A stretch of 64,000 bases of DNA from Tumebacillus algifaecis. GTDB taxonomy: Bacteria; Bacillota; Bacilli; Tumebacillales; Tumebacillaceae. Of the stretch, positions 1-15,264 are shown in pieces. The notes beneath the pieces are model-generated. The model was not told the DNA's origin. It saw only the letters and a program-made list of their open reading frames with translations, and made no database searches. Position numbers and translations under genes: made by a program. Location: the NCBI RefSeq assembly GCF_002243515.1, contig NZ_CP022657.1:1665001-1729000 (forward strand), written 5' to 3'. Numbering within the stretch: position 1 is the first letter of the stretch; every line of letters starts with the position of its first letter.

Positions 1-375
1 AAAGTCAAAGGCGCGCGACTCAGCCAAATATACCGTCGTCTTCATCCTGATAAACCTTCATACACAGTGACCGGAAGTGGTGGGGGTGGTACTCACGTGT
101 ACCATTGGGAGGAACCACGTGCACTGACTAATCGTGAACGAGCGCGCTTACAAACTTTCCCAGATCATTTTATCTTTGAGGGACAGAAAGAAAAAGTTCG
201 CCAGCAGGTTGGGATGGCTGTTCCGCCAGCTGGGGCGAAGATTATCTTTGAAGCGATCTTGAAGACGTTTGCTGAAGAACCGTATGAATCGCTAGAAGAG
301 TCTCAGTGGTGGAAGGGACTCAAAATCGATCTGAAAGAATTGAAAAACGATAAACAATTACAACTAACCCTTTAA
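1..375 (+). CDS. DNA (cytosine-5-)-methyltransferase, C-terminal part (5' end outside window)
   Basis: The frame is open from base 1 and ends with TAA, giving the last 124 residues. It shows the conserved end of a C5-cytosine methyltransferase: the segment YRRLHPDKPSYTVTGSGGGG resembles the region before motif IX, RALTNRERARLQTFPDHF is motif IX, and VGMAVPPAGAKII is motif X (usually GNAVPP, here GMAVPP). These motifs position the target-recognition region and rebuild the AdoMet pocket. The catalytic Pro-Cys motif lies upstream of the window and cannot be checked. The gene converges on an AlwI-type endonuclease, so it is a plausible cognate or companion methylase. The GTG at base 67 is an internal codon, not the start. 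Confidence 0.92.
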   Translation, partial: KVKGARLSQIYRRLHPDKPSYTVTGSGGGGTHVYHWEEPRALTNRERARLQTFPDHFIFEGQKEKVRQQVGMAVPPAGAKIIFEAILKTFAEEPYESLEESQWWKGLKIDLKELKNDKQLQLTL

Positions 376-388
376 TCTCTGTTATAGA

Positions 389-419
389 AAAACAGGAGGC
401 CGAATGAGCCTCCTGTTTT
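389..419. terminator. bidirectional hairpin terminator between methyltransferase and AlwI-like gene
   Basis: A perfect 12-bp stem, AAAACAGGAGGC paired with GCCTCCTGTTTT, has a 7-base loop and A/T runs on both flanks. It sits between two convergent genes and overlaps the stop codon of the minus-strand gene by two bases. Confidence 0.85.
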
Positions 420-2034
420 ATTTTGTCACAGCTCGTAGCAACTGCTCGATAGTCTTATAGCCGCTATTGTTCACTGCTTTCAAGAACAAATCTACTCTTT
501 TATCGGGTGAGAGCTCATGTTCTAAACAGTAATCAAGAAAACCAAGCAAAACAGACGCACTTAACATTACTCCCTTAATGATGCGTGTAGGGAAATGAGT
601 TGTAGCTTTTTGGCTTATCTTTATTAGATTTTTCTCACCGCTGAAATTACCAGCTGTCACGTATCCGAAAAATTGAATTTCGCGGCCATCGTAGCCCTCA
701 TAATTTGGAATATACTCGGAAACCATGTGCGAGACAAGTGTAGCGGATAATGGGAATTTGTCTGTTCGGTAGTTTTTCGCATCGATCAGACCGCACGCTA
801 GGTCTCCAAACTTCAACAGAATCTCGATCTCTGTTCGATCAGAGGTGTTAGGCTTAGGGCGCATTTCTAAATCAAAACCTATAGCTTTGAAGATCGCTCC
901 TGTTTGGTCTTCAAAAAGCAAGTTGTCATTCTGGTTGAGGTATTGCTCGACGAAATCATTATTCAATTGCGAGTATGAATATTGATGAATTTCACTCGCT
1001 AAATTCACTACATCACGTGAGGGAAACTCTTTTGACAACACACTTTTCAATTCGCTGATCGAGAGGGTAGAGGGCACAGGATACGACTGAAGCAGCTTCT
1101 CGACCTTTTGAGCCACCTTCCCACGATTTGTTGCAGGGCTCAATCCACCATAGCTTGTTGCTTTGTAGCTGTTTACATCAAGACCGTTGTTTTCAGCCAT
1201 CCGTTGTAATGAAATCATGTAGCGCTTGTTGAAAGGATATCGCTGGTCCCATTCATCAAGTTCTTCATTGAATTGTTTGCTCTTTGACGGATCTACACGT
1301 AGAGACTGGCCACGAATATATTCAACAAACTCGGTGTACTCGCACAGCAACATGAAGGTGTGTGCAACATCCGAATGTGCGTTTAGGAAATCGCGGGCCG
1401 CCCGATCAGAGCGTTCTCGATGGTCGTATTGTTCTGCGATTTCCTGGTGAATCCGGTCTTTTTCATTTTCCGAGGCTCTACGGAAATGTACAATCTTGTC
1501 TATCACTTTCGAAAGTTCATCATCCTTCTTCGCAGTCATCGCAAAATAGGTGATCTCTTCTTTGGTTAGGTAGTAGTCAAGTGCCGCTTGGTTGGTTAAA
1601 CGGGCGATGAAACGGGCAGGACGTATTTGGAATCCGTCGTCAAATTTAGGGCGGAACCCTTTTTCTAAAAAGTATGCGTTTGGAATTTGTAAAGTCAGAA
1701 TTTGTTTGCGAGTGTTCATGTAGACCGCTTTTTCTTCGAGAAGGGCTTGACCTACTTTGGTTGGAACCAAATACCCCTCGTCATTTGTGTAAATGTAGGC
1801 AAACGTTTTCAGCATTGCTGCCCAAGTCCTGCCGCCGGAGCCATCATTGCTTATGTGCTCGCGTTTGAGATTCTCATCAACGAGTGCCTGCTCATATGCC
1901 ACATGAGCGTGTCGGTTGGCCGACCACTTTATAGTAAAATTCTTGGTTGCTTTTTGTAGCGCAACGAGAGCTTCTTGATGAAATCTTGGGTCGCGCTCTG
2001 GGCGGGTAATGAACCAAACTTTACGTTCAGACAT
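418..2034 (-). CDS. AlwI-family type IIS restriction endonuclease
   Basis: This 538-aa protein matches the R.AlwI family as I know it. The N-terminus carries the block KVWFITRPERDP (res 5-16) and ISNDGSGGRTWAAMLKTF (61-78). The C-terminus has a FokI/AlwI-like PD-(D/E)XK cleavage core: GLIDAKNYR (415-423) supplies the D-x-K of the active site, an acidic residue upstream (E402/E404 or D411) is the likely partner, and FFGYVTAGNF (455-464) corresponds to the core strand after it. Family members bind a short asymmetric site (AlwI: GGATC) and cut a few bases away; the exact site here is not readable from sequence. The start overlaps the upstream 165-aa gene by 8 bp, indicating co-transcription, and the gene converges on the methyltransferase. 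Confidence 0.85.
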   Translation of the reverse strand: MSERKVWFITRPERDPRFHQEALVALQKATKNFTIKWSANRHAHVAYEQALVDENLKREHISNDGSGGRTWAAMLKTFAYIYTNDEGYLVPTKVGQALLEEKAVYMNTRKQILTLQIPNAYFLEKGFRPKFDDGFQIRPARFIARLTNQAALDYYLTKEEITYFAMTAKKDDELSKVIDKIVHFRRASENEKDRIHQEIAEQYDHRERSDRAARDFLNAHSDVAHTFMLLCEYTEFVEYIRGQSLRVDPSKSKQFNEELDEWDQRYPFNKRYMISLQRMAENNGLDVNSYKATSYGGLSPATNRGKVAQKVEKLLQSYPVPSTLSISELKSVLSKEFPSRDVVNLASEIHQYSYSQLNNDFVEQYLNQNDNLLFEDQTGAIFKAIGFDLEMRPKPNTSDRTEIEILLKFGDLACGLIDAKNYRTDKFPLSATLVSHMVSEYIPNYEGYDGREIQFFGYVTAGNFSGEKNLIKISQKATTHFPTRIIKGVMLSASVLLGFLDYCLEHELSPDKRVDLFLKAVNNSGYKTIEQLLRAVTK

Positions 2035-2524
2035 TGCGATCCTCCTCTGTTATATATCTCTTGATAAAAGCCTGATAGGCGAGTACTTCCTTAGAATCGG
2101 AGTAATACACTTGCTCTTTTAAAAACACATCAATGTAAACTTTCACACCTATAAAAAAGTCTCTTTCCCGTTCGGCAAGTTCCTGAAACTCAAAAATATT
2201 TAACTCTGAGGCGATGATTAAGGTCTTTGCGGTTTGGTGGTCTAGTAGTCTAATAAAATCCAAAGGCTTCTTGCCTTTCTCGACTAACACGTTATTAAGT
2301 GCACTCCAGTAACGCAAGAATGTAGTTATTTGGATGTCTTCTAGGTTCTTAAAGCTCTTGTTGAATGCACCGTCATTACGGCCAGCTGCTCGGCTTAATT
2401 CGACTTGTAGAATTTTATTTTCTTTTATTTCTTTTGTCCAATTATCAAAAAATCGCTTTAGTACAACCTTATGCAGCAACTTTTGTAAATCACTTTTGTT
2501 AATCTCAGGTGGGCAGACAGACAT
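2027..2524 (-). CDS. small HTH-like protein, possible controller (C-protein-like) of the restriction gene
   Basis: A 165-aa protein of no family I recognise with certainty. The central segment LSRAAGRNDGAFNKSF followed by LEDIQITTFLRYWSALNNVL has the helix-turn-helix rhythm of XRE/controller proteins. The ATG at 2524 is preferred to the GTG at 2533 because the AAGGG ribosome site is then about 10 bases away. It is the first gene of a two-gene operon with the AlwI-like nuclease (8-bp overlap). A perfect 22-bp palindrome lies about 57 bp upstream, as expected if the protein regulates its own promoter. Controller function is inference; the remaining 85 residues (alpha-helical, charged) are longer than in classical C proteins. 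Confidence 0.55.
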   Translation of the reverse strand: MSVCPPEINKSDLQKLLHKVVLKRFFDNWTKEIKENKILQVELSRAAGRNDGAFNKSFKNLEDIQITTFLRYWSALNNVLVEKGKKPLDFIRLLDHQTAKTLIIASELNIFEFQELAERERDFFIGVKVYIDVFLKEQVYYSDSKEVLAYQAFIKRYITEEDRNV

Positions 2525-2580
2525 CTTGTTCACACCCTTCGTATGTAATAATCATAGTGTAACCTTCAATATTGCATCGT

Positions 2581-2602
2581 ATATCACCTTATAAGGTGAT
2601 AT
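2581..2602. promoter_or_regulatory. perfect 22-bp palindromic operator upstream of the restriction operon
   Basis: The left arm ATATCACCTTA is followed directly by its exact reverse complement TAAGGTGATAT with no spacer. It lies 57 bp before the chosen start of the minus-strand HTH-like gene, in the promoter region. A C-box for autoregulation of the restriction operon is the natural reading. Confidence 0.6.
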
Positions 2603-2896
2603 TGATTGCGAAATTTGTAGTTATGATATTGGCACAAATTAACCAAGGGAAGTGTGTGTGATGAATGTGTGAACAACGGTTGTAAAATCTGAAATATAAA
2701 TGGTTGAATATTCCCCACTTCAAAAAGGACAGTCTCTTCGAGAGGTGAGAAATCATGGAACGGGGAATTTTTTTGTAAAAAACGGATGAAATATTGTAGA
2801 TGAGCATCACGGCTATTTCGAAAGGGTATGGCCGTGCTCGTAAGACTGTTCGCAGATGGTTACAGGAGGAATATTGGGTTACTGTATTTTGGCAAT
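2603..2896. other. gene-poor stretch with a possible transposase scrap
   Basis: No convincing full gene. A 32-codon frame at 2800-2898 (+) reads ITAISKGYGRARKTVRRWL, which looks like the helix-turn-helix of a transposase N-terminus, but it ends at once at a stop next to the IS21 remnant. I read it as another decayed fragment. Confidence 0.3.
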
Positions 2897-3302
2897 AAAA
2901 AAGCACTTGCCAACATCGATCTACAACTGTCCCTACGGTTTACGAAGACCATGGGGGAGCGAGAGGATGATGAAAGTGCCAAAACAACAGCGAAGGATGT
3001 TCGTTTACAGATATTGCAGAGGAATGAATGACAGTGAATTGGGGAACTGCCAAAAAGTATGAGGACAAGGGCGATTAGAACGAGTCGATGCTCGGGCGTC
3101 CCCCGGTATTATGGCCGTTTCTTGAAGTCATAGATACATTAATGAAAGAAGGAGCCCTTCCACTCAAGCAAAGTCATAGCGCTCGGCTCACCCCAACGAA
3201 ACAAAAAGTTAGGAGCGCTTGGAAAATACGGGCGGTGAAGCACAAGCCGACTTTGGCACCGTGCAGGTTGTTAAGAATAGGTAACTGGTGGAGTGCAAAA
3301 TC
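2897..3302 (+). mobile_element. istA: decayed IS21-family istA fragment (left copy)
   Basis: Broken reading frames still spell IstA. The start reads MMKVPKQQR (compare MLKVPERQ in the right copy at 10154), then VNWGTAKKYEDKGD, then in another frame GRPPVLWPFLEVIDTLMKEGALP, then GGEAQADFGTVQVVKN, which is the IstA segment with the first catalytic Asp of the DDE core. Several stops and frameshifts interrupt it. About 80 bases of upstream DNA are also shared with the right copy (both contain CACTTGCCAACATCGATCTA). It abuts the stop codon of the Z1 gene at 3303. No istB and no right end were found. Confidence 0.85.
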
Positions 3303-5333
3303 CTATGAGAGGTTCGTGATGAGAGCAAAGTTGCCGTCCGGGAAGCGGAACACCGGAATCCAAAAAGGATTTCCAGCCCAAGCAGCTGTTTTTTCTTGTC
3401 GGAGCATAAGTAAAGTTGGCAAGTCTGTATCGGCAGCTTGGAGATCCGCGCTTGTATAAACAGCTCTCAACTCATCTGGTCTACTCAGTTTACGCCCTCT
3501 CCGTACCAAAAGATACGCTTGTGTATACTCGTTTTTCAAGTGCTCTACTGCAAGTCTAATTCGCTCGTCGCTCCAAAGACCTTTAGATTCCTTATGTGTT
3601 TTTGTCCACTTAAGGAGTTGCTCAATGATATCAATAGAAACTTTATAGCCTTTGGTTTCTGTATACGATTGCAAAAGTTTATCGATTGATTCCGTGTTCG
3701 TTACAATCTCAGTGCCCTGATACTCTGGGCTGTGCGGAAAATAAGCCTTACCCGCTGCGAAAAAGCCCAATTCATTAGGGTCTAGCACGTTGGAACGAGT
3801 TGGTTTAATTGACGTATCCAGCCAAATACCTCGGAACCCTTTATCATCCTTGTGCTTCTGAATAATATCACGTAATTGTGTTTCAGACTCGTAGATTAGT
3901 TGGAATCGCTCAACTAAGTGGTCTGGCAAGAAAATTCTCGTAACATCCAAATCACGGGAGCGGTACCCGTACATCCTTGCATGTTGTAGTACGGTATCCA
4001 TCTGAGGCTTTTTTGCTTGCCTTCCATAGTAAGTGACCAACAAACGTTCGATCGTCACACCACGTCCTAGCTTCGTTCCGCCGATTAGGATATTATATCG
4101 CGCGTCATAGCGAGGTTGACCATTTGCACCATCTGTGTTGATGACTTGGATAGCTGTATTGTTGATGTACAGCACGAGTTTCTGCTCGATTTCTTCAAAG
4201 TCAGGTACTTTCTGGACGTGAGGCTTGAGGTTTTCGTAAGCTTGTTTCAAGTCTTTGATGATACGAATTTTTTTTGGTGAATCTTCCTTGGAACGCAGCT
4301 GAAGTGCCAACTCTTCTGTGTACTTTTGAATGATGATTCGAATATGGTCATGGTCGGCTTTCTTAAGGCTTACATGACATAGGAAGGAGAAATGACGGCC
4401 TTCCCGTTTAAGAATCTTAATCGTTGATCCGACATAGAACTGACAGATAGCAAGCTTTAATCCTTGAGGGATTGTTTTATTCACATTGCTTACTTTTCCA
4501 CTCAAACTGCTCAGTTCTTGCTCATCGACCCGTTGTAAGTAGTGACAATTCGCATTTTCTGAGAAAAAGTCCTCGCCGCCTACGTAGGCTTCTCCCGGTT
4601 CAGTCAGCACAGTAAACTCAGGACGATACGGTTTTTCCTGACCGAGCAAGAATAGCGATTGTGGTGTCGCGGTGACTTGAACAAATGTCCGTGATGAAAA
4701 AAGATCGCGCAACGCGCTTATCCGCCCATTTATACGGCTAACCTCGTCATCTTCCTTTGAGGCGTTCGTGTCTAGAGAAGCTTGATCTGCTTCATCATCG
4801 AAAATGATGGTGGGGTGTCTGAAGGCGCCAGTTTGTTGGATTACTTCAATCAAATTTTGGAGATGCACACCATTTTTTGTACATACAAAAAGCATGACGC
4901 CATCGGTGGCAAGGTTTTTTTTGATTGTGCCGACCGAGTTAGGGTCCCACTCTTCCTTCCCAGTGATCTTAATACCTGGCAACGACTTTCGGAGGCGACT
5001 AAGTGTTTGGTCATACAGCCACAAATTGTCAGATGTCAGCACAATGAAGCAACGGTAACTATTGTCAGCCGCCATGGCAATTGAGCCGATCAGCATGTTG
5101 GTTTTCCCGCTTTGAATCTTCCCGAAGATTAGACCACGTTTTTCACCTTTCTGCGTCGGTTCCTGTAAATTTTCCACGATTTCCACGGCGGTGTTCACGA
5201 TATTATTGACACCGCTACGTGGCACTTTTTCTTCCTGCAAGATTTCTTCTAACTCGAATATGTGATTCCCGTCGACCACTACTGTACGTTTATGAGTGGG
5301 TTTCACTATTCTGCTAACAAATTGGTTTTTCAT
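3303..5333 (-). CDS. Z1-domain superfamily II ATPase (restriction/defence system component)
   Basis: A 676-aa ATPase of the Z1 type. Visible motifs: Walker A GKIQSGKT (res 71-78), Walker B IIFDDEAD (176-183), motif III VTATPQSLFLL (220-230), motif V GGTKLGRGVTIERL (418-431), and motif VI DTVLQHARMYGYR (446-458). These mark a DEAD-like helicase/translocase fold; Z1 proteins are known from comparative genomics to travel with MORC-like ATPases and methyltransferases in restriction-type operons. It lies 21 bp downstream of the 172-aa gene on the same strand, so the two form an operon divergent from the MORC operon. The 3' end abuts the decayed IS21 fragment, but the C-terminus looks complete and ends in its own stop. 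Start ATG 5333; the ribosome site is weak. Confidence 0.88.
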   Translation of the reverse strand: MKNQFVSRIVKPTHKRTVVVDGNHIFELEEILQEEKVPRSGVNNIVNTAVEIVENLQEPTQKGEKRGLIFGKIQSGKTNMLIGSIAMAADNSYRCFIVLTSDNLWLYDQTLSRLRKSLPGIKITGKEEWDPNSVGTIKKNLATDGVMLFVCTKNGVHLQNLIEVIQQTGAFRHPTIIFDDEADQASLDTNASKEDDEVSRINGRISALRDLFSSRTFVQVTATPQSLFLLGQEKPYRPEFTVLTEPGEAYVGGEDFFSENANCHYLQRVDEQELSSLSGKVSNVNKTIPQGLKLAICQFYVGSTIKILKREGRHFSFLCHVSLKKADHDHIRIIIQKYTEELALQLRSKEDSPKKIRIIKDLKQAYENLKPHVQKVPDFEEIEQKLVLYINNTAIQVINTDGANGQPRYDARYNILIGGTKLGRGVTIERLLVTYYGRQAKKPQMDTVLQHARMYGYRSRDLDVTRIFLPDHLVERFQLIYESETQLRDIIQKHKDDKGFRGIWLDTSIKPTRSNVLDPNELGFFAAGKAYFPHSPEYQGTEIVTNTESIDKLLQSYTETKGYKVSIDIIEQLLKWTKTHKESKGLWSDERIRLAVEHLKNEYTQAYLLVRRGRKLSRPDELRAVYTSADLQAADTDLPTLLMLRQEKTAAWAGNPFWIPVFRFPDGNFALITNLS

Positions 5334-5354
5334 GTTCTTATCCCCAGACTATAA

Positions 5355-5873
5355 TTAAAGTGTAAACAGTTTACGCGGGAAATCATTGTGACGAATGGAC
5401 GTAGACATCTCACCAGCTGGTCCGGCTACCCAAAGACTCCGGTTATGCCCGGAATTCACTGATATCCACTTATCTCCCAAAACTTCGAAATCGATAATCT
5501 TCTTCAGTTCTTCGGCGCCTAGTACACAAATCGTGTGGTTGGCACACACCAATCCAAGAAAAAAATCTTTCCCTCGTACCAGTTCAGCGCGAATTGCATC
5601 CTCCTCGCGTTCGGAAAGTTGGAAGCGCCATGGCGCTCGAGCATTCGTTCTGTATTTTAGCATCAATACAGACTTTTGATTAATAACGTATACGCTGTTT
5701 TGATCTGGCCGCTTGTATATGTGAACGGCCTCGCCGTGTTCAACAATTTGCGCGAGGGCCGCGCCATAAAATAGCTCTTGTTCCTGAATTTTCAATGGGT
5801 CCACACCTTTTTGATAATGATATACACCAAGCGAGTAAAATAGCTGATCCAACAATTCGAGGAAATGATTCAT
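5355..5873 (-). CDS. 172-aa protein of unknown function, partner of Z1
   Basis: I do not recognise a family. The protein is mixed alpha/beta: an N-terminal helical part (res 1-45), then SVYVINQKSVLMLKYRTN (60-77), PWRFQLSEREEDAI, DFFLGLVCANHTICVLG, and a C-terminal NDFPRKLF. The order of strand-LKY-helix and strand-LVC could fit a restriction-endonuclease-like fold with a degenerate D/E-x-K, but no acidic pair is clearly in place, so a non-catalytic or adaptor role is equally likely. It is first in the minus-strand operon with Z1 (21-bp gap) and shares a divergent promoter region with the MORC gene. Start ATG 5873 has only a weak AGG upstream. Confidence 0.7.
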   Translation of the reverse strand: MNHFLELLDQLFYSLGVYHYQKGVDPLKIQEQELFYGAALAQIVEHGEAVHIYKRPDQNSVYVINQKSVLMLKYRTNARAPWRFQLSEREEDAIRAELVRGKDFFLGLVCANHTICVLGAEELKKIIDFEVLGDKWISVNSGHNRSLWVAGPAGEMSTSIRHNDFPRKLFTL

Positions 5874-6334
5874 AAGTTAGCCTAATATCATTGTCGAAGT
5901 ACATGTATGACACCAAATTCGGATGCAACACCTTGTCATTGACAGGTCTTCCAAAACCTCTGGTAACTTTTGAGTGGCATTAATTTCATGAGTTTTCTAT
6001 TTATCTGATTGTTAACCCCTAACAAGAGTGCAATATAACATGATGTTTTCTTGAGTGGGCTATCTAGTGAATATAAACAATTAACCTTTTTATTTAATGG
6101 GAATATCTATGAAGTTATTCTATTGCATCTTAACACCAATCTCCCATGTGATTCAATAACTCTTTCAGTAAAAATAGTATTTAGGGTTGGTTTTTCTAAA
6201 AAAGTAGTTGATAAAAGGAAATTGCAAGATTATGTTGAATTACCTAATTGAAAATTAGATACAGTGAAATTGATTATTTTCGATTTATAAATTTCTGTAT
6301 ATCAAATTCAACTTACGTCAGAAAGGGGAACAAT
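5874..6334. promoter_or_regulatory. AT-rich divergent promoter region of the Z1/MORC module
   Basis: 461 bp separate the divergent 172-aa/Z1 and MORC operons. The stretch is strongly AT-rich and should hold both promoters. A 66-codon frame (6051-6251, +) starts with TTG, lacks a ribosome site and has an AT-driven composition, so I do not call it a gene. No long palindrome was seen. Confidence 0.45.
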
Positions 6335-8242
6335 ATGTACGGTTGGAAATTCCCTCTGCTTAATCACGGGCAAATAATTGGACTCAACGACTCCGGTGTG
6401 GAGACGTTCCGAAATGATTTGATCGATTCCCTTGCTCGAGAAATTATACAGAATTCGTGTGACGCTCGGGATGAACAAGCTGAGCATCCCGTTGAAGTAC
6501 ATTTTGAGCTGTTATCCTTACCGACTGAAAAACTCCCAGGTCGAGATAGACTTATCCAAGTCTTCCAATCGGCTCGACTGGTTTGGGCTCATCTCCCAGA
6601 TTCCTGCAAGTTTTTTGATCATGCTTTGGATTTGATCCAACGACCTGAGATTCCAATGTTGAAGATCAGTGACTACCAAACAACAGGTTTAACTGGGGCG
6701 CGGGAGGAGATTTTCGGCAGCTGGAATGCATTGGTAAAATCGTCAGGCGTATCCGATAAACCATCTCAAGCAGGTGGGTCCTTTGGGATCGGGAAGAATG
6801 CTCCCTTTGCTTGTACTCGTTTTCGGACGATCTATTATGGAACAAAAGACACGGACGGCGTCACCGCTTTCCAAGGTGTGGCCAAACTGGTCTCTCATGA
6901 AGAAGAAGGGGAACTCACTCAAGGTACTGGTTTTTTTGGTCGGAGTGAACGAAATCTACCTTTACTTGAAGAGATCCATTTTGCTGAAGCAGGAGTGGAT
7001 CCCTTGTTTACCCGAACGCAAACCGGAACGGATATATTTATACCTGGATTTCAAATAGAATTGGGTTGGGAAGTTCGCATCATCCGATCGGTGCTTGAGC
7101 ATTTCTTTGTTTCCATTAAGGAAGGCCGTCTTGTTGTCTGTGTAGGGTCCACTAAGATCGATACTCAGAATCTGGAAATGCTACTCCATCAACATGTGGA
7201 TGAAGAAAATTCAATGCTCGTATCCAGCTACTATCAAGCGTACAAGACACCCGTATTAGCGACTGGATTCGAAGAACCCGGGGACGTGGAACTGTACTTG
7301 TTGTCCGGTAAGGAACTACCCAAACGCATAGCTATGTTCCGTTCGACAGGCATGAAAATTCAAGATAAACGCTTCAACGCCATTATGCCGTTTTCTGGCG
7401 TATTTATAGCTAAAGGAAAAGGACTGAATGAGTTCCTCCGTAAGTTGGAACCCCCGAACCACCAAAGCTGGGAGTGGAGTCGGTTCAGTCTAGATACTAA
7501 GGAACAAAACCAAGCCAAGAAGCGTCTTGAACGAATGTATAATTGGATCAAAAATCATCTTCGCCAAATGGAAGCCCAGGAGGAAACCCAAACGCTTGAG
7601 GTCGAAGGCATGAGCCAATTTCTCCCAGATAATCATGATGAATCATTTCTGACTGAACGACAAGGGGACGGGATGCGCACCGTACCGACCGATATCTCTG
7701 TCCGTACTGTTCGACGCCAAGCTCATGGGGTGCAAATCGCCAAAGAAGAAGTTTCAGCGGCACAAGAAGATCTCATCGAGGACAAAGAACAGTCTAAAGA
7801 TAACGGTCAAGAGATTGAAGTAACCGGAGGGACCGGGCCAAGCGGTGAGCAAGATGATTCAGATGAAAAAGGTGGTAATGACGGACAGGACGGGTCAAAC
7901 CAAGGGTCAGGTGAGACATCGGGACGCAAAGTGCGGAAGATCAAGTCTCTGAAAAAAGTAGTCGTATTTTGCGTGAACCCAATGGAAGGTATCTACCAAT
8001 TGATCGTCATGCCAGATGTAGACGGCGTGGCATCACTTAGTATCTCGGTGGTGGGTGAAGACAGTAAGGGACATGTACCGGTGCTTGAGGCGAAAATTAA
8101 AGAGACAGGCGATGCTATTGCGGTGGCTCCAAAAGGAAAAATTGGTCCGTTCTGGATGAAGTCCAATCAGAACAATACGCTGCTGATCCGAATGAACAAC
8201 TCAACTCGTTATCGCCTTGAGGTGACCTTACATGCAAATTAA
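6335..8242 (+). CDS. MORC-like GHKL ATPase of a Z1-type defence module
   Basis: A 635-aa protein with an N-terminal Bergerat ATP-binding fold. Seen: N box REIIQNSCDA with E36, N40 and D43; G1 box ISDYQTTGL around D113; G2 box GGSFGIGKNAP (148-158); and a later GTGFFG. The QNSxDA box and the Asn/Asp spacing match the MORC/MutL class rather than histidine kinases. After the ATPase and a transducer-like region (to about 420) comes a charged helix, an acidic Gly/Ser/Asp-rich linker (about 470-530) and a beta-rich tail of about 100 residues. The ATG at 6335 follows GAAAGGGG at good spacing and begins MYGWKFPLLN; the longer frame from 6248 has no ribosome site. The next gene overlaps by 11 bp. MORC-like ATPases clamp or compact DNA; in phage defence this role is inferred. 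Confidence 0.87.
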   Translation: MYGWKFPLLNHGQIIGLNDSGVETFRNDLIDSLAREIIQNSCDARDEQAEHPVEVHFELLSLPTEKLPGRDRLIQVFQSARLVWAHLPDSCKFFDHALDLIQRPEIPMLKISDYQTTGLTGAREEIFGSWNALVKSSGVSDKPSQAGGSFGIGKNAPFACTRFRTIYYGTKDTDGVTAFQGVAKLVSHEEEGELTQGTGFFGRSERNLPLLEEIHFAEAGVDPLFTRTQTGTDIFIPGFQIELGWEVRIIRSVLEHFFVSIKEGRLVVCVGSTKIDTQNLEMLLHQHVDEENSMLVSSYYQAYKTPVLATGFEEPGDVELYLLSGKELPKRIAMFRSTGMKIQDKRFNAIMPFSGVFIAKGKGLNEFLRKLEPPNHQSWEWSRFSLDTKEQNQAKKRLERMYNWIKNHLRQMEAQEETQTLEVEGMSQFLPDNHDESFLTERQGDGMRTVPTDISVRTVRRQAHGVQIAKEEVSAAQEDLIEDKEQSKDNGQEIEVTGGTGPSGEQDDSDEKGGNDGQDGSNQGSGETSGRKVRKIKSLKKVVVFCVNPMEGIYQLIVMPDVDGVASLSISVVGEDSKGHVPVLEAKIKETGDAIAVAPKGKIGPFWMKSNQNNTLLIRMNNSTRYRLEVTLHAN

Positions 8243-9089
8243 AGGAAGCCATTATCCGCATCCGGTTTTGTCCGATTTTTCAGAGGCACTGGTCGATTCG
8301 TTGTTTGATGCATCGTTTGATACTCAAGTGGACGGCAATATGTATCGGCTTCGGGTGGACTTCACTCTTGTCAATGAAGATCTGAATACCCTCATTCAAA
8401 AAGGAAAAGCAACTTATGCACTCCATCTTGAATGTATAGGCACCCGGTTACGTTCTCTTTACAGATCCCGAGAGGATAACTTGGTTGTGGAAGTGCCGGC
8501 TCAGGAACTTGATGGAAGAGTTGAAGTATGTGTGTTCATATTGGCGTCAGAGGACTTGGAATACACGAACCGGAATTTCGGTGAAGATTATAATGGTGTT
8601 ACATTTTTCGTTCAAAAGGGTGACGTGTTGGCGGTCGGACCTGAATTTCGCTTCGTCCCGCCCAAAGACATTGATCCATTGCTTAAAGTACCGTCTATTT
8701 TTGCGGTACAAATGAACCCTCATTCTGATGCGCCAGATCTTGACGTCTCTTTGGCAACACCTAAAGTAGTAATTCTTCTCTCGCGCAAATTATTTACTGA
8801 TTACCAAACACTGGCAAACGTCGAAGAGATGAAATCTGTACTAGCGACGTTGATTGTGTTACCTGCACTCACATATGTGTTGGAAGAGATGAACAACGAT
8901 GACATGATCGATGAATATGAGCTACAACGTTGGTACCAAGTTTTACAAGATAGATTACGCGAACTGAATCTGAAAGGGTCCGGCCATTCAAACCTTTGGG
9001 TCGCACAACAACTGATCGGTGCTCCACTGAGCAATGCGTTGACCGATACAAAAAAACTTGTCATGGCATCTGGAGGTGGCAATGAGTAA
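8232..9089 (+). CDS. 285-aa protein of unknown function in the MORC operon
   Basis: Unrecognised family. Residues 1-150 are rich in beta strands: RLRVDFTLVNEDL, YALHLECIGTRLRSLYRS, DGRVEVCVFILASEDLEY, YNGVTFFVQKGDVLAVG. Residues 180-285 are helical (LATLIVLPALTYVLEEMN, ELQRWYQVLQDRLRELN). There is no transmembrane segment and no obvious nuclease motif. The start overlaps the MORC stop by 11 bp after GAGGTGACC, and the stop overlaps the DUF6339 start in TAATG, so the three proteins are translated in tight coupling and likely act together. A structural adaptor between the MORC ATPase and DNA or a nuclease is a guess only. Confidence 0.72.
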   Translation: MQIKGSHYPHPVLSDFSEALVDSLFDASFDTQVDGNMYRLRVDFTLVNEDLNTLIQKGKATYALHLECIGTRLRSLYRSREDNLVVEVPAQELDGRVEVCVFILASEDLEYTNRNFGEDYNGVTFFVQKGDVLAVGPEFRFVPPKDIDPLLKVPSIFAVQMNPHSDAPDLDVSLATPKVVILLSRKLFTDYQTLANVEEMKSVLATLIVLPALTYVLEEMNNDDMIDEYELQRWYQVLQDRLRELNLKGSGHSNLWVAQQLIGAPLSNALTDTKKLVMASGGGNE

Positions 9090-9886
9090 TGACCATACAT
9101 TATCTGCGAGAAGCCCATTTGTCGCTACTGAAAACGGGGATTGAAGCAAACTTCCCCCGGTATCAAGCCCAGAGTCCTTGGCTTGATGACCTATTTGGTG
9201 GTGAGAGTTACAGCTTGCCATCAAACTTTTTGATGCCCGAGGTAAAGTTGCAATTGGGGAAAGAGGCGCACAACGATCTGCACAATTCGAAAATTGTCCA
9301 CCAAGCGTTTCGAAACCTCACGTTGACAGAGGCATCTAATGAGCAACTTTGGGCATATCTGGCGCATGTGACTTTTTGGGAGTATATGATTTCACGGTGG
9401 CCGGCCGTGGCTCATGATGAGCAAGGATTTGACGATGATTCGGATGATGACGAAGAGAGCAAGACAAATCGCAAAAAAGATCCCTTTACTGTCGTTCGAA
9501 ACCGCTACTTTTTCAACGGGGGTAGATCACTGGTTCGTCACGGCATTGCGAGGCTCTGGTGGTATGGTTTCGCAACGTATGATCCAAATCGAGGCAACCC
9601 GTATGAATTAACAGAGGTACTTTTGAAAAATCAGGATTTGGCCCAAAATTTAATGGAACGATCGTTCTCGCGAAATATAATGATCCTGCGAACCATTCTG
9701 TCATTGCTACATAAGGAAGGTCAGTCTGATGACCGTTGGTTCCAACGGAAGTACTATCGTGAAGTAATAAAGCATATCAATCACACTGGTGGTGTAACGG
9801 TTTTAGATGCATTGGATGTTCCAGATATTGAGACGGTTGTGAAGAATGGGATGGAGAGTGTGGCACTAAGTTTTACTGAAGGCTAA
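9089..9886 (+). CDS. DUF6339-family protein
   Basis: A 265-aa, mostly helical protein resembling the DUF6339 family, whose members occur beside Z1 and MORC-like ATPase genes. Recognisable blocks: AHNDLHNSKIVHQAF (res 55-69), EQLWAYLAHVTFWEYMISRWP, RYFFNGG, ARLWWYGFATYD, and ERSFSRNIMILRTILSLL. A very acidic stretch (DDDSDDDEES) lies near residue 120. Translation is coupled to the preceding gene (TAATG). No catalytic motif is visible; the biochemical role is unknown. It is the last gene of the plus-strand operon, followed directly by a terminator. Confidence 0.75.
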   Translation: MTIHYLREAHLSLLKTGIEANFPRYQAQSPWLDDLFGGESYSLPSNFLMPEVKLQLGKEAHNDLHNSKIVHQAFRNLTLTEASNEQLWAYLAHVTFWEYMISRWPAVAHDEQGFDDDSDDDEESKTNRKKDPFTVVRNRYFFNGGRSLVRHGIARLWWYGFATYDPNRGNPYELTEVLLKNQDLAQNLMERSFSRNIMILRTILSLLHKEGQSDDRWFQRKYYREVIKHINHTGGVTVLDALDVPDIETVVKNGMESVALSFTEG

Positions 9887-10783: not shown

Positions 10784-11515
10784 ATGGTGGTTGAGAACAA
10801 ATCAAAACGAAATCCACCGTGGCAAAGGGACGAGGTAATACTTGCATTGGATTTGTATTTTCGCAGACATCCCAAATTTTTAAAACAGAGTGACCCTTTA
10901 GTGGTTGAATTGAGCCAATTACTTAATAATCTACCCATCCATAAAGAACGATCAGCAACGTTTCGTAATCCTTCCTCAGTATTGAAAAAGCTATGGAACT
11001 TTGCACAGTATGACCCAACTTATCATGGAGTGGGTCTTATGCGAGGAGCGAGGATGGACAAAACAATTTGGGATGAGTTTGCGGGAGATCTTGAGTATTT
11101 ACAATGTGTGGCACAGCGAATCAAAGAAGGGGCTGATTTAGAGCTATCTTCGGATGCGGGGGATGATGAAGAGACAGAGTTTCCAGAGGGAAGAGTGTTG
11201 TATCGATTACATAAATCTCGCGAACGGAATGGCAGACTAATAGAGCTAGCCAAAAAGAGGGCGAAAGATGAAGGGCGTCTATTTTGTGCAATTTGTGAAT
11301 TTGACTTTGCGAAGGCTTATGGCCCGCTAGGTGAGGGGTATATCGAGTGCCATCATACTGTTCCAGTTTCTAAATACGATGAGAATTCAAAAACCAGACT
11401 TGAAGATTTAGCTTTGGTATGTTCGAATTGTCATCGAATGTTGCATCGAAAACGTCCGTGGCTAAATCTTACTGATCTAAAGGGAATATATCTTAGGGAT
11501 GAGCGATTGAGATAG
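10784..11515 (+). CDS. HNH endonuclease, McrA-like (type IV restriction candidate)
   Basis: A 243-aa protein with a C-terminal HNH nuclease. C168-x2-C171 and C213-x2-C216 form a structural zinc site, and ECHHTVPVS (189-197) with LVCSNCHRMLH (211-221) gives the beta-beta-alpha-metal active site. The N-terminal half (NPPWQRDEVILALDLYF, FRNPSSVLKKLWNFA, GARMDKTIWDEFA) is the domain commonly seen in HNH proteins annotated as modified-base restriction enzymes. Such enzymes cut DNA carrying foreign methylation; the specificity here is unknown. Start ATG 10784 follows GAGAGGAG. It stands alone but next to the Z1/MORC and AlwI modules. Coexistence with a resident C5 methyltransferase implies it does not attack that mark. 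Confidence 0.82.
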   Translation: MVVENKSKRNPPWQRDEVILALDLYFRRHPKFLKQSDPLVVELSQLLNNLPIHKERSATFRNPSSVLKKLWNFAQYDPTYHGVGLMRGARMDKTIWDEFAGDLEYLQCVAQRIKEGADLELSSDAGDDEETEFPEGRVLYRLHKSRERNGRLIELAKKRAKDEGRLFCAICEFDFAKAYGPLGEGYIECHHTVPVSKYDENSKTRLEDLALVCSNCHRMLHRKRPWLNLTDLKGIYLRDERLR

Positions 11516-11941
11516 GAATAAGTGTTAGAGTAGGGTCTCAATTTGAGGGTGTGTCAAAAATTATGAGCAACTCCAAAATGCGAGCGTTTCTTGTGATAGC
11601 GATCAATTCGGTCAGAATAATGCCTCGCGGACAAAAGGATAGTTTATCCATAATTCTAATTTCGTGATGGTCTACTTGCGACCACGTCCATTACATTTCA
11701 GCAAAGCATCTTGAAAAGTGATTTATCACTCGAAAAGATGCTTTTTCCTTTCACCCCAATTAATTGCATCTTTAATGGGGTCCCTGTTTCGAATGATTTG
11801 GAAAATAAATATTAGATAAATGCAATGCTGTTGATGTACCGCAATGCGCGGCTCCTAAGAAATAAAAATATATACACAATATAAACTTTGAAAAAACAAA
11901 TCAGTATGTTATCTTAGGTATATTGCAGAGGAGGTTTGTAG
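11516..11941. other. intergenic region with terminator and promoter of the RNPP-like regulator
   Basis: 426 bp with no gene seen. The first part is low-complexity; a hairpin at 11704-11745 follows; the last 120 bases are very AT-rich and should contain the promoter of the regulator, whose ribosome site is AGAGGAGG at about 11929. Confidence 0.4.
11704..11745 (+). terminator. hairpin terminator downstream of the HNH gene
   Basis: Outer stem AAGCATCTT / AAGATGCTT, inner palindrome AGTGAT-TT-ATCACT, then a T run. It lies about 190 bases after the HNH stop. Confidence 0.65.
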
Positions 11942-13258
11942 ATGGGAAGTACGGTAGAGACATTAGGAGAAAAAATCAGGAGACTTCGTTTGGAAAGAGG
12001 AATGAGTCAAGCTGAGATTGCAGATGGCTTTGTAACGGTATCGATGATCAGTCAGATCGAACGAGATCGAAATACAGCATCTATAGAACTGTTACAGCAT
12101 ATTGCCAAAAAGCTTCAAATTCCTTTACACGTGCTTGTAAGAAGCGAAGTGGAGCAAATGGAAGCGATAAATCAACAAAAGCTCGTGAAAATTTATTTGC
12201 AAACTAATCAATCAGAACAAGCTGAACTACTTTTGGTTGAACTGCGAAGAAGGAATGATTTATCGCAAGCTGACATCATTGATCTAACAATCGATCACGC
12301 AGAGTGTATGATTCAACAGGGCAAATATGATCAATCTTTAGAATTTCTAACACCATTAGTTACTCAGATGGAGAATAACAATTTTGATGATGCCTATATC
12401 TTGGCGAAAATTCGAAACAAAATGGGGAACGCATACTATCACAAGCTTGAGTTTACTCCCGCCTATTATAATTATCAGAAGGCTTACGATCTCATTGGAC
12501 GATTCGGCACTTTCGATCAACTTGCGGCATATATTTCATACAATGTTGGTAATACCTTGCGTCAAATGGGTCATGGACAAAAAGCACTACTATTTTTAGA
12601 AAGGGCATATTCGTATTTTCGTAATGTAATGGATATTCGTAAGCAGGCTGACACGCTTTTCACTCAAGGCCGAGCTTTTTACAACTCATATGATTTAAAA
12701 CGATCGGCTGAATCCTATGAAGAGGCCTATGTGTTATACAAGGGCTTAAACTTGGTGGCTTGGGCAGTAAAGGTACAGCATAGCGTTGCGGTATTACTGA
12801 AAATGAATGAGGACATGCATGGAGCAATATCAGCTCTAGAAGAGTGTGCAGAATTTTATCTAAATGATGCGGACTATTTAAATTATATCTTGGTGCTGGC
12901 AAAACTTGCAGAAGTTCAAATGGAAAATGATCCGAAAATTGCCCTCGAGAAAATCGTTGCCGCAGAAAGGCTAATTGAGGAACATTGCTTGCAAAATAAG
13001 GTCGAGAGCGCTGTGCTATTTCGAGTAAAATCAAAGTATCATTTGCGTAATGAGGAATTTGGAAAGTGTCTAGAAGAAGTGTTAAAGTCAGCAGATTTAT
13101 TTGCTAAAATGGGACTAGTTGCCTCTCAAGTTGACTCTTTGGAAGTTGCCGTTGATGCATATGAAAAGCTGGGTAATTTTGAGCAAGCGTTGAAACTTGA
13201 GCGTGAACGGAACCGACTCTTAAAAAAATTGAATCCGAAAGGTGAACTGATTGGATGA
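11942..13258 (+). CDS. HTH-TPR transcription regulator, RNPP/NprR-like
   Basis: A 438-aa cytosolic regulator. Residues 8-65 form an XRE HTH (LGEKIRRLRLERGMSQ, then VSMISQIERDRNTASIELL, then IAKKLQIPL). Residues 75-430 consist of tetratricopeptide repeats (GNAYYHKLEFTPAYYNYQKA, GNTLRQMGHGQKALLFLERA, ALEECAEFYL and others). This architecture and length are those of NprR/PlcR-type regulators that bind re-imported signalling peptides in the TPR domain. The stop codon overlaps (ATGA) the start of a 42-codon secreted-peptide gene, the classical layout of an RNPP receptor and its pheromone. Start ATG 11942 follows AGAGGAGG. Target genes are unknown; base composition is AT-rich like the defence island. 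Confidence 0.85.
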   Translation: MGSTVETLGEKIRRLRLERGMSQAEIADGFVTVSMISQIERDRNTASIELLQHIAKKLQIPLHVLVRSEVEQMEAINQQKLVKIYLQTNQSEQAELLLVELRRRNDLSQADIIDLTIDHAECMIQQGKYDQSLEFLTPLVTQMENNNFDDAYILAKIRNKMGNAYYHKLEFTPAYYNYQKAYDLIGRFGTFDQLAAYISYNVGNTLRQMGHGQKALLFLERAYSYFRNVMDIRKQADTLFTQGRAFYNSYDLKRSAESYEEAYVLYKGLNLVAWAVKVQHSVAVLLKMNEDMHGAISALEECAEFYLNDADYLNYILVLAKLAEVQMENDPKIALEKIVAAERLIEEHCLQNKVESAVLFRVKSKYHLRNEEFGKCLEEVLKSADLFAKMGLVASQVDSLEVAVDAYEKLGNFEQALKLERERNRLLKKLNPKGELIG

Positions 13259-13383
13259 AAAAGTTACTTTTAACGGTACTCCTCGTATCAGGTTTTTTGT
13301 GTTTCTCTGGCGATCATGTAACCGTTCATGCTGCGTCCGAAACACCTGGACCGGGTCCCTTGGGTGTGTCGATTTTGAAATAG
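13255..13383 (+). CDS. putative secreted signalling propeptide (Phr/NprX/PapR-like)
   Basis: A 42-aa frame starting in the ATGA overlap with the regulator. Residues 1-25 form a typical signal peptide (MKKLLLTVLLVSGFLCF core), with a VHAA signal-peptidase-like site; the remaining SETPGPGPLGVSILK would be exported. RNPP pheromones are made this way, cut to 5-10 residues and re-imported by an Opp permease. The active peptide is probably part of the last 8-10 residues, which is inference. The stop lies inside the following hairpin, so the pair is one transcription unit. Confidence 0.7.
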   Translation: MKKLLLTVLLVSGFLCFSGDHVTVHAASETPGPGPLGVSILK

Positions 13384-13420
13384 AAAGAGTTGTGAAGACT
13401 TCCACGACTCTTTCTATTTC
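13377..13420 (+). terminator. long hairpin after the peptide gene
   Basis: Stem GAAATAGAAAGAGT with ACTCTTTCTATTTC, extended by a G-T pair and GTG/CAC, 7-base loop. No strong T run follows, so termination may be weak. It overlaps the last codons of the peptide gene. Confidence 0.6.
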
Positions 13421-13477
13421 ATCCGCTACCTTAATGAAATATTTAGTAAAAACAACCAACTGGAGTGTTGTTTTATC

Positions 13478-13990
13478 ATGAAACGCAAATTCTGGCTGTT
13501 TCTTTCTTTGCTGTTGCTTCCATGGTTTGTGAATGGGTGTGAAATATCCAAAGAGGATGTGCCGCAACAACAAAAACAGGTGACCGGGCCTGTCGTTCCC
13601 TTAGCTGAAGAAGGGCGAAAGTTTGCCATCGACGAAAAGTTAATGTCCGATGTCGAGGAAACGCAAATTGTATATACGCGCTTTCAGAAATATGGACCAC
13701 AATACCTAATGGTACGTGGGGTGGACACAGACGGCAGGGAAAAAATCATCTGGTTAAGTGGCAACACCTCTACGGGAATTCGAGTGGTCAGTGAAACTTA
13801 TATAGAAACCTTCCTAACCGAGTCGCGGATACGTGAAATGGTTAAGGATCAGGGGGAGATCGTCGATTTGTTCCTTGCTCCGAACGATCGTGTGGAAGGC
13901 AAGGGCAAGAATCAGCCGATTTGGTACGTAGAGTTTGGGAATGGACACGTGACTTATCTGAACCCTGAAACGGGCGAACAGTTGAAATAA
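13478..13990 (+). CDS. predicted lipoprotein of unknown function
   Basis: A 170-aa protein with a lipoprotein signal: KRK, a hydrophobic stretch LFLSLLLLPWF and a lipobox VNGC (Cys21). After a Gln-rich linker the C-terminal part includes GPQYLMVRGVDTDGREKIIWLSG and WYVEFGNGHVTYLNPETGEQL, which resembles the PepSY-like/DUF5590 type of extracytoplasmic domain. It should be anchored on the outer face of the membrane. It is a single gene with its own terminator; the promoter must lie in the 60 bases after the peptide-gene hairpin. Confidence 0.7.
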   Translation: MKRKFWLFLSLLLLPWFVNGCEISKEDVPQQQKQVTGPVVPLAEEGRKFAIDEKLMSDVEETQIVYTRFQKYGPQYLMVRGVDTDGREKIIWLSGNTSTGIRVVSETYIETFLTESRIREMVKDQGEIVDLFLAPNDRVEGKGKNQPIWYVEFGNGHVTYLNPETGEQLK

Positions 13991-14277: not shown

Positions 14278-15264
14278 TTATCTCTCGCACGCTTGAATCC
14301 TTTGCGGTAGATCGGCCTTATCTAAATCATGCCCGATAAACACCGCAAACGCCCGGCCATTCCCATCGACATCTACAATCGCAGACATCGGCGCTCCTGG
14401 TTCGTAATGGAACTCATGCAGCATTCCATATTCGGCATCCTTATAAAACCCTTTGGCGCGCAAGATCGTCTCTGGCAAGGAGCGCAGGAAGTCGAAAAAC
14501 TTCTCTTTATCCACCGCTCCTTGGAACTCATACGTCATCGTCTGCAAGTTGCCAAAACTCGTTCGTTCTCGCAACGTCGGCTTGACTTGCCCCACGTTGC
14601 GGCGGGTGAAGCCTTTTGGTTGCCTCACAGGTTTCGCTTTCGGCGTGGTTCGTACTGCGAACAGCGTGGAAGCATCCACCTCGCCTTTGATCACTCGATG
14701 CAGGGGCGCGTTCCGATTGAGCTCTTGCAATACGTTTTGCAAGGCCTCCCAGCGTTCGGGTTTCACCAGGTCTGTTTTGGAGACCAGAATCATGTCTGCA
14801 TACTGCACTTGCTGGACCATCGTCCGTTCGTTGGCATCGAGTGTTTCCGGCGATAGGTCGAGCGGGAAGCGTTTGGCGCTGACAAGGGTATAGATGCCCG
14901 CCAGTTGCATTTTGTCTGCCAGCTCAGGCTCGACAAGCGCTTCGACGAGATCGACCGGAGAGGCGACCCCTGTGGTCTCCAAGAAGATCACATCGGGCTT
15001 GTATTGCTCGACCATTTGCACCAGCGTCACGCTGAGGCTACCGCGCAGGGTACAGCAGACGCACCCTTCCAGCAGGTCCATGACGGGCACTGCTGTGTTC
15101 TGAAGCAACAGGGTATCGACGCTTTCTGAACCAAACTCATTCATCAGCACAGCAGGTGTGCGGCCTTGCGCTTTCACGTGGCGGAGCAGGGTTTTCAACA
15201 GGGTAGTTTTTCCTGCGCCGAGGTAGCCTGTCAGTATGTAAACGGGAATCGGTGAGTGTGTCAT
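14278..15264 (-). CDS. COG0523 (CobW/ZNG-type) GTPase, probable zinc metallochaperone
   Basis: A 328-aa G3E-family GTPase. Walker A GYLGAGKTT (res 13-21), Walker B ETTG (96-99), base-specificity SKTD (162-165), and the metal-binding CxCC motif GCVCC (C68, C70, C71); a CobW C-terminal domain follows (about 215-328). Such proteins use GTP hydrolysis to hand metal, often Zn2+, to client enzymes. The ATG at 15264 follows AAAGGAG. A Zur-box-like sequence lies 16 bp upstream, so expression under zinc starvation is likely and supports the zinc role, as for YciC/ZagA of Bacillus. It is shorter than YciC and closer in length to YjiA. Confidence 0.88.
   Translation of the reverse strand: MTHSPIPVYILTGYLGAGKTTLLKTLLRHVKAQGRTPAVLMNEFGSESVDTLLLQNTAVPVMDLLEGCVCCTLRGSLSVTLVQMVEQYKPDVIFLETTGVASPVDLVEALVEPELADKMQLAGIYTLVSAKRFPLDLSPETLDANERTMVQQVQYADMILVSKTDLVKPERWEALQNVLQELNRNAPLHRVIKGEVDASTLFAVRTTPKAKPVRQPKGFTRRNVGQVKPTLRERTSFGNLQTMTYEFQGAVDKEKFFDFLRSLPETILRAKGFYKDAEYGMLHEFHYEPGAPMSAIVDVDGNGRAFAVFIGHDLDKADLPQRIQACER

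Follow-up and report, generated by a model that had tools for sequence, protein, structure and literature searches.

Does the regulator gene that overlaps a short reading frame in this DNA form with it a genuine peptide quorum-sensing pair, and does its position beside defence genes carry any meaning? In Bacillota, peptide quorum sensing controls sporulation, competence, virulence, conjugation, antimicrobial production and phage lysogeny. The stretch analysed, hereafter the window, comprises 64,000 nucleotides (G000:C1:1665001-1729000) of a 4.52 Mb genome in a single contig. This genome belongs to the genus of Tumebacillus avium, which NCBI assigns to the family Alicyclobacillaceae. In what follows, G000 stands for the window genome, G001 and G002 (T. 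avium) are relatives in the genus, and L numbers are loci (L001 being the window receptor). Sequence comparison indicates that receptor and propeptide very probably are a genuine RRNPP-type quorum-sensing pair, belonging to a lineage-expanded receptor family of this genus. The features of the locus are collected in table 1.

Table 1. Features of the receptor-propeptide pair and of its surroundings, in window positions
Feature	Positions	Strand	Basis
End of C5 DNA methyltransferase gene, which begins upstream of the window (G000:C1:1664260)	1..375	+	PADLOC MTase_II, ORF
Restriction part: type II restriction enzyme (418-2034), Z1 helicase (3303-5333), small genes	418..5873	-	PADLOC, Pfam
PDC-M33A/B/C candidate defence operon (6248-8242, 8232-9089, 9089-9886)	6248..9886	+	PADLOC 4e-198, 2e-84, 4e-75
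HNH endonuclease, nearest 5' neighbour, 426 nt upstream of receptor	10784..11515	+	Pfam HNH 1.8e-8; PADLOC HNH 5.5e-10
Promoter-like site of the pair, TTGAAA-16 nt-TATCTT, TG before second hexamer	11888..11915	+	Consensus scan
Receptor ribosome-binding site AGAGGAGG	11927..11934	+	Read from sequence
Receptor gene, 438-aa HTH_3 + TPR transcriptional regulator, RRNPP type, ATG start	11942..13258	+	ORF, Pfam, clade alignment, tree
Propeptide gene, 42 aa, ATGA overlap with receptor stop	13255..13383	+	ORF; clade versus background count
Predicted pheromone core SETPGPGPLGV	13336..13368	+	Conserved core co-varying with receptor; tandem core repeats in paralogs
Terminator-like hairpin closing the transcription unit of the pair	13376..13421	+	RNA fold
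cobW gene, anchor conserved at this site across three species	14278..15264	-	Pfam cobW

The first-pass annotation had described an HTH-TPR regulator gene ending in an ATGA overlap with a 42-codon frame that carries a signal peptide and a cleavage site, in the layout typical of receptor and pheromone, and these elements were all recovered. The regulator matches the Pfam families HTH_3 (3e-11, residues 12-63) and TPR_12 (3e-11), and this combination of layout and domains identifies the pair as an RRNPP-type system. The short frame, translated as MKKLLLTVLLVSGFLCFSGDHVTVHAASETPGPGPLGVSILK, has a basic start, a hydrophobic core and a TVHA/A site followed by SETPGPGPLGVSILK, the signal being assigned by hydropathy and not by a signal-peptide predictor. 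In the receptor alignment, N201 is invariant across the 13 members of the clade described below and at least 90% conserved among 36 receptors, and may be a peptide-contacting asparagine.

Ahead of the receptor there is a sigma-A-like promoter site, a consensus match only (9 of 12 positions), which ends 26 nt before the start codon. At the other end of the pair, a hairpin of 19 bp (-27.1 kcal/mol, z -8.3, RNA fold) has its onset within the last propeptide codons, suggesting that receptor and propeptide make up a transcription unit of their own. A search for gapped-dyad operators in 13 receptor promoters gave no dyad above shuffles, and no direct repeats are common to the intergenic regions of the window.

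About 28 long homologs of the receptor were found in the window genome, and many more among six relatives of the family. In the receptor tree, the window receptor and 12 others form a genus-specific clade (support 96/98), made up of subclade alpha (L001, L021, L022, L033, L037, L027 and L040; 100/99) and subclade beta (L002, L043, L028, L034, L003 and L038; 99/98). We looked after each gene for frames of 35-95 aa starting -15 to +30 nt from the gene stop, with K/R near the N terminus and a hydrophobic core. Such a frame follows all 13 clade receptors versus 1/292 other genes in the same regions (Fisher p ~6e-22); the raw background count was 9/300, from which the eight that proved to be receptors were removed. 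The peptide frame is thus kept with its receptor in relatives while its ends vary, as would be expected if the receptor-pheromone reading of the first-pass annotation is right. Receptors of this group have propeptides of about 39-92 residues, mostly located -3 to +10 nt after the receptor. Several other paralogs of the window genome (L009, L010, L011, L013, L017-L020 and others) mostly have no detectable propeptide, and may be orphan receptors or respond to differently encoded signals.

After the cleavage site, the clade propeptides share a core of the form A-xxx-P-[GI]-x-P-[LM], followed by variable tails. The cores are ASETPGPGPLGV (window), AYDAPGPDPMGI, AETLPGPGPMV (twice), AEVTPGPGPMV, AESVPGPPVMG, AIDPPIGPLVI and ALDTPIGPLSP; the two identical ones belong to L027 and L040, whose signal peptides have diverged. 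With cores delimited by hand beforehand, receptor similarity in the 13 clade pairs correlated with core similarity (Mantel r 0.66, p 2e-4) and hardly with that of the tails (r 0.11, p 0.17); for 27 pairs, the values were r 0.46 (p 2e-4) for the core and r 0.10 for the tail. Moreover, paralogs outside the clade carry related cores in tandem, as in the L008 propeptide with five copies of FINGGEPLSPK. Conservation, co-variation with the receptor and tandem repetition in paralogs together point to the core, rather than the last residues, as the seat of the pheromone. The predicted pheromone of the window is therefore an internal peptide around SETPGPGPLGV, with approximate ends and a variable tail after it, and the earlier proposal of a C-terminal 5-10-mer becomes doubtful. 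In the closest orthologous propeptides of the family, those of L006 and L041, differences number 3, 3 and 13 at codon positions 1, 2 and 3, which indicates that these propeptides are translated and under purifying selection.

The label NprR-like, also given in the first-pass annotation, found no support. NprR structures are present in PDB, and the 22 PDB sequences that a single-sequence search matched at E<=0.01 include no NprR chain; the best RRNPP match in that search was PlcR, through the HTH only. A profile of the family matched PlcR at 1.8e-22 over positions 1-271, with Rap proteins also among the best matches. NprR-NprX and PlcR-PapR of the Bacillus cereus group do resemble the window pair in having an HTH+TPR receptor and an adjacent propeptide, but membership in the NprR group is not supported by these comparisons. 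The AimR receptors of the arbitrium system (AimR-AimP) and those of subfamily 08 are likewise HTH+TPR receptors, of clan C, and a DPG motif has been reported in AimP and subfamily 08 peptides (PMC12700828); DPGP is found here in the paralog peptides of L004 and L029. The window pair differs from AimR-AimP in being chromosomal. Plasmid and phage records gave no full-length receptor match, all matches being partial and centred on the HTH, and the scan of viral contigs gave a single match, again to the HTH only; in these collections, the pair is not phage- or plasmid-borne.

The AloR-AloP systems of Paenibacillus polymyxa are similar to the window family in that an HTH+TPR receptor is followed by a short secreted propeptide, and in the many paralogs per genome, some of them orphan receptors (Voichek et al. 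2020, PMC7425212). Compared by description, they differ in belonging to Paenibacillaceae and in a mature peptide, SHGRGG in AloP13, that is C-terminal, whereas the conserved core is internal here. AloR membership, a possibility for the window receptor, is defined in a later survey by 30% identity or more over 80% coverage to AloR13 (PMC10075063). In 118 genomes of a large-genome family of the same class, only the HTH matched our receptor. The same survey used RRNPP_detector to predict pairs in complete Firmicutes genomes, Alicyclobacillaceae included, and places some candidates beside biosynthetic clusters (Bernard et al. 2023, PMC10075063). Since systems of Alicyclobacillaceae are reported there, pairs in Tumebacillus are, as such, probably already in public lists, and the window pair itself may be among the candidates. 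CRISPR is not mentioned in the survey text, where "defense metabolites" refers to antimicrobials only (PMC10075063).

The defence island noted in the first-pass annotation is indeed present upstream of the pair, with PDC-M33A/B/C genes, a Z1 helicase, a type II restriction enzyme and an HNH endonuclease. The restriction part scored 7e-247 (REase_II) and 1e-106 (Helicase_II) in PADLOC, with the Pfam domain Z1, and the first part of the C5 methyltransferase scored 2e-73 (MTase_II). On the other side of the pair, the cobW product is 84-85% identical to those of G001 and T. avium, where cobW also adjoins a pair: L022 in G001 (receptor 50% identical, AEVLPEPGPHIIAK) and L033 in T. avium (57%, AESVPGPPVMGISVQK), with differing cores. 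The other border of the site is a conserved gene for a membrane-type protein of ~292 residues (81%). Between these borders, the cargo varies among the three species. In the window it comprises the C5 methyltransferase, the type II restriction enzyme, the Z1 helicase, PDC-M33A-C and HNH; in T. avium, a Mza-like Z1 helicase, two C5 methyltransferases and a type II restriction enzyme adjoining the receptor; and in G001, a divergent type IV restriction enzyme ~180 nt from the pair. Different cargo with a pair at the same cobW site in three species suggests a defence hotspot with the pair as one stable border. The sequence of the pair itself diverges fast. The three loci count as one site and are not fully independent.

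Elsewhere in the genus, clade pairs lie directly after CRISPR-Cas operons. In T. avium, L027 starts ~170 nt after a type III operon with a cas10-like gene, csm3-like genes and a Csm6-like CARF-HEPN gene, and is followed by a 26-repeat array, while L040 starts 93 nt after a type I-D operon (cas11d, cas7d, cas5d, cas3d) and is followed by at least 71 repeats. In G001, L034 starts ~142 nt after a type I-A operon (cas3, cas8a, cas7, cas5), and L038 starts 113 nt after a DpdA-like gene. L021 of T. avium shares an island with HNH, DNA methyltransferase and SIR2-like genes; past the I-D array, L037 has a PtuA/AriA-like ATPase within a few kb. PDC-M26A is close to both L002 and L028, and PDC-M48B to L043; PDC genes are only predicted defence genes. 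L003 adjoins NRPS genes. Terminator-like hairpins were seen by inspection before several receptor genes, so that pair and cas or defence operon are probably separate transcripts.

In this sample of three genomes, whose sites are partly shared between species, the nearest 5' gene is of defence type in 7 of the 13 clade pairs, the window HNH being the weakest call. Outside the clade, a strong defence gene was found within the stretches examined for one of nine sampled pairs (LmuA near L041). When candidates are included, defence association amounts to 10/13 in the clade versus 1/9 outside it (Fisher p 0.0075). Twenty random loci of the same genomes held mainly housekeeping genes and, by inspection, no defence locus; their PADLOC matches at 1e-20 were to single helicase-, DprA- or AAA-like families, with proteins assigned by inspection. 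Any PADLOC hit as a criterion of defence was dropped, given that random loci also match through helicases and relatives of housekeeping genes. For three pairs right after cas operons, a rough Poisson estimate is 8.5e-9, which takes ~14,000 genes and four cas loci, treats placement as independent, and is overstated if both kinds of gene favour islands. A pair is present at three of the four cas loci found in the genus. These contexts in other species strengthen the idea, raised in the first-pass annotation, of a possible density control of defence. Quorum-sensing control of CRISPR-Cas in general has been reviewed (PMC13246641), and the case here would resemble it in a gating of immunity by cell density. 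RRNPP systems go unmentioned in that review, whereas here the peptide pair lies physically beside cas and restriction loci in Bacillota. In the mainly open-access literature searched, we found no RRNPP pair controlling CRISPR-Cas or restriction.

By family analogy, the 42-aa propeptide would be exported through its signal peptide and cut near TVHA/A, and a Pro/Gly-rich peptide around SETPGPGPLGV would build up as the population bearing the same pair becomes denser. Re-imported, it would bind the TPR groove of the HTH receptor and change how the receptor acts on its own promoter and on those of its targets. The neighbouring defence operons are the likeliest targets, with the pairs of the clade then serving as interchangeable gates through which density (or kinship) controls CRISPR-Cas and restriction systems, a possibility that we put somewhat short of even. 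A shade more tentatively, the whole Tumebacillus clade may be dedicated to immunity, each pair gating the neighbouring CRISPR-Cas, restriction or other defence locus by peptide density, with the type III and I-D systems of T. avium tied by their identical AETLPGPGPMV. If true, this would offer a compact and testable system on why bacteria tie immunity to density or kinship. Nature provides two contrasts for it: a type III operon that is accompanied by a pair in T. avium but not in the window genome, and a single chromosomal site whose restriction cargo and pheromone both differ among the three species.

The main alternative, to which we give about an even chance, is that the pairs are real but only reside together with defence loci, as accessory genes in variable hotspots, and that they regulate something else, such as sporulation, a secreted product or their own paralogs. 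The variable cargo of the cobW hotspot fits this explanation, as do the NRPS neighbours of L003 and the transposases and integrases near several pairs. Additionally, place in the tree does not match place on the chromosome: the sister of the window receptor is L021, from another site, and not one of its positional counterparts, suggesting that pairs move or are replaced. No pair follows the type III operon of the window genome (L190:3468-13679; G000:C1:1199467-1209678), whose proteins share 56-76% identity with their T. avium counterparts, nor is there one at an incomplete-looking type I locus in G006, of the sister genus; the notion of a pair at every CRISPR locus of the genus was dropped on account of the former. 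Against simple co-residence stand the three pairs whose starts lie 93-170 nt behind cas operons, each of a different type, and the excess of defence-type 5' neighbours and of defence association in the clade over the pairs sampled outside it.

Gating of the defence loci has another competitor in the gene downstream (13478-13990), for a 170-aa lipoprotein, which the pair might mainly control. AloR13 activates its adjacent gene, and the peptide shuts that gene off; the AloR-AloP neighbour is frequently, though not obligatorily, Spo0E-like (PMC7425212). We saw nothing Spo0E-like downstream of the window pair, and the lipoprotein has no Pfam domain. Its gene is the next one on that strand, at a distance of 94 nt from the propeptide stop, and its closest homolog in G001 (67% identical) also adjoins a clade receptor, L028. 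But that homolog lies tail-to-tail with what is a different paralog, and a strong hairpin separates the window pair from the lipoprotein gene, both of which make the link weak; moreover, the positional orthologs L022 and L033 have no lipoprotein gene. We consider this explanation unlikely. That the 42-codon frame is a chance ORF beside an orphan HTH-TPR regulator is extremely improbable: although frames with a hydrophobic start occasionally follow other genes and another paralog group has no propeptides, the frame recurs with a conserved core throughout the clade, and its counterpart in the sister pair L006/L041 is under purifying selection.

Some further observations were made during the survey. 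Propeptides with five copies of a signal unit occur downstream of L008 (G000:C1 ~3199410-3199690) and at L051 in G013 (SDEHIYN), and should be useful for fixing the mature pheromone. L003 (L135, G000:C1:2648500-2661000) and L021 (L180, G002:C1:3742000-3754000) lie at the same NRPS cluster in two species, with defence-type cargo only at the T. avium site. Just upstream of the T. avium I-D locus, Wadjet (JetABCD)-like genes were recognized by eye (L174:226-6883; G002:C1:2345225-2351882). Polymorphic-toxin-like genes are found near the pair L043 (L147:8143-11796, G002), and pretoxin domains are among the family matches. Finally, a CRISPR-like array of five 74-nt units with no cas genes nearby (L137:8880-9289; G000:C1:469379-469788) lies ~0.7 kb downstream of the paralog receptor L019 and near the pair L005.
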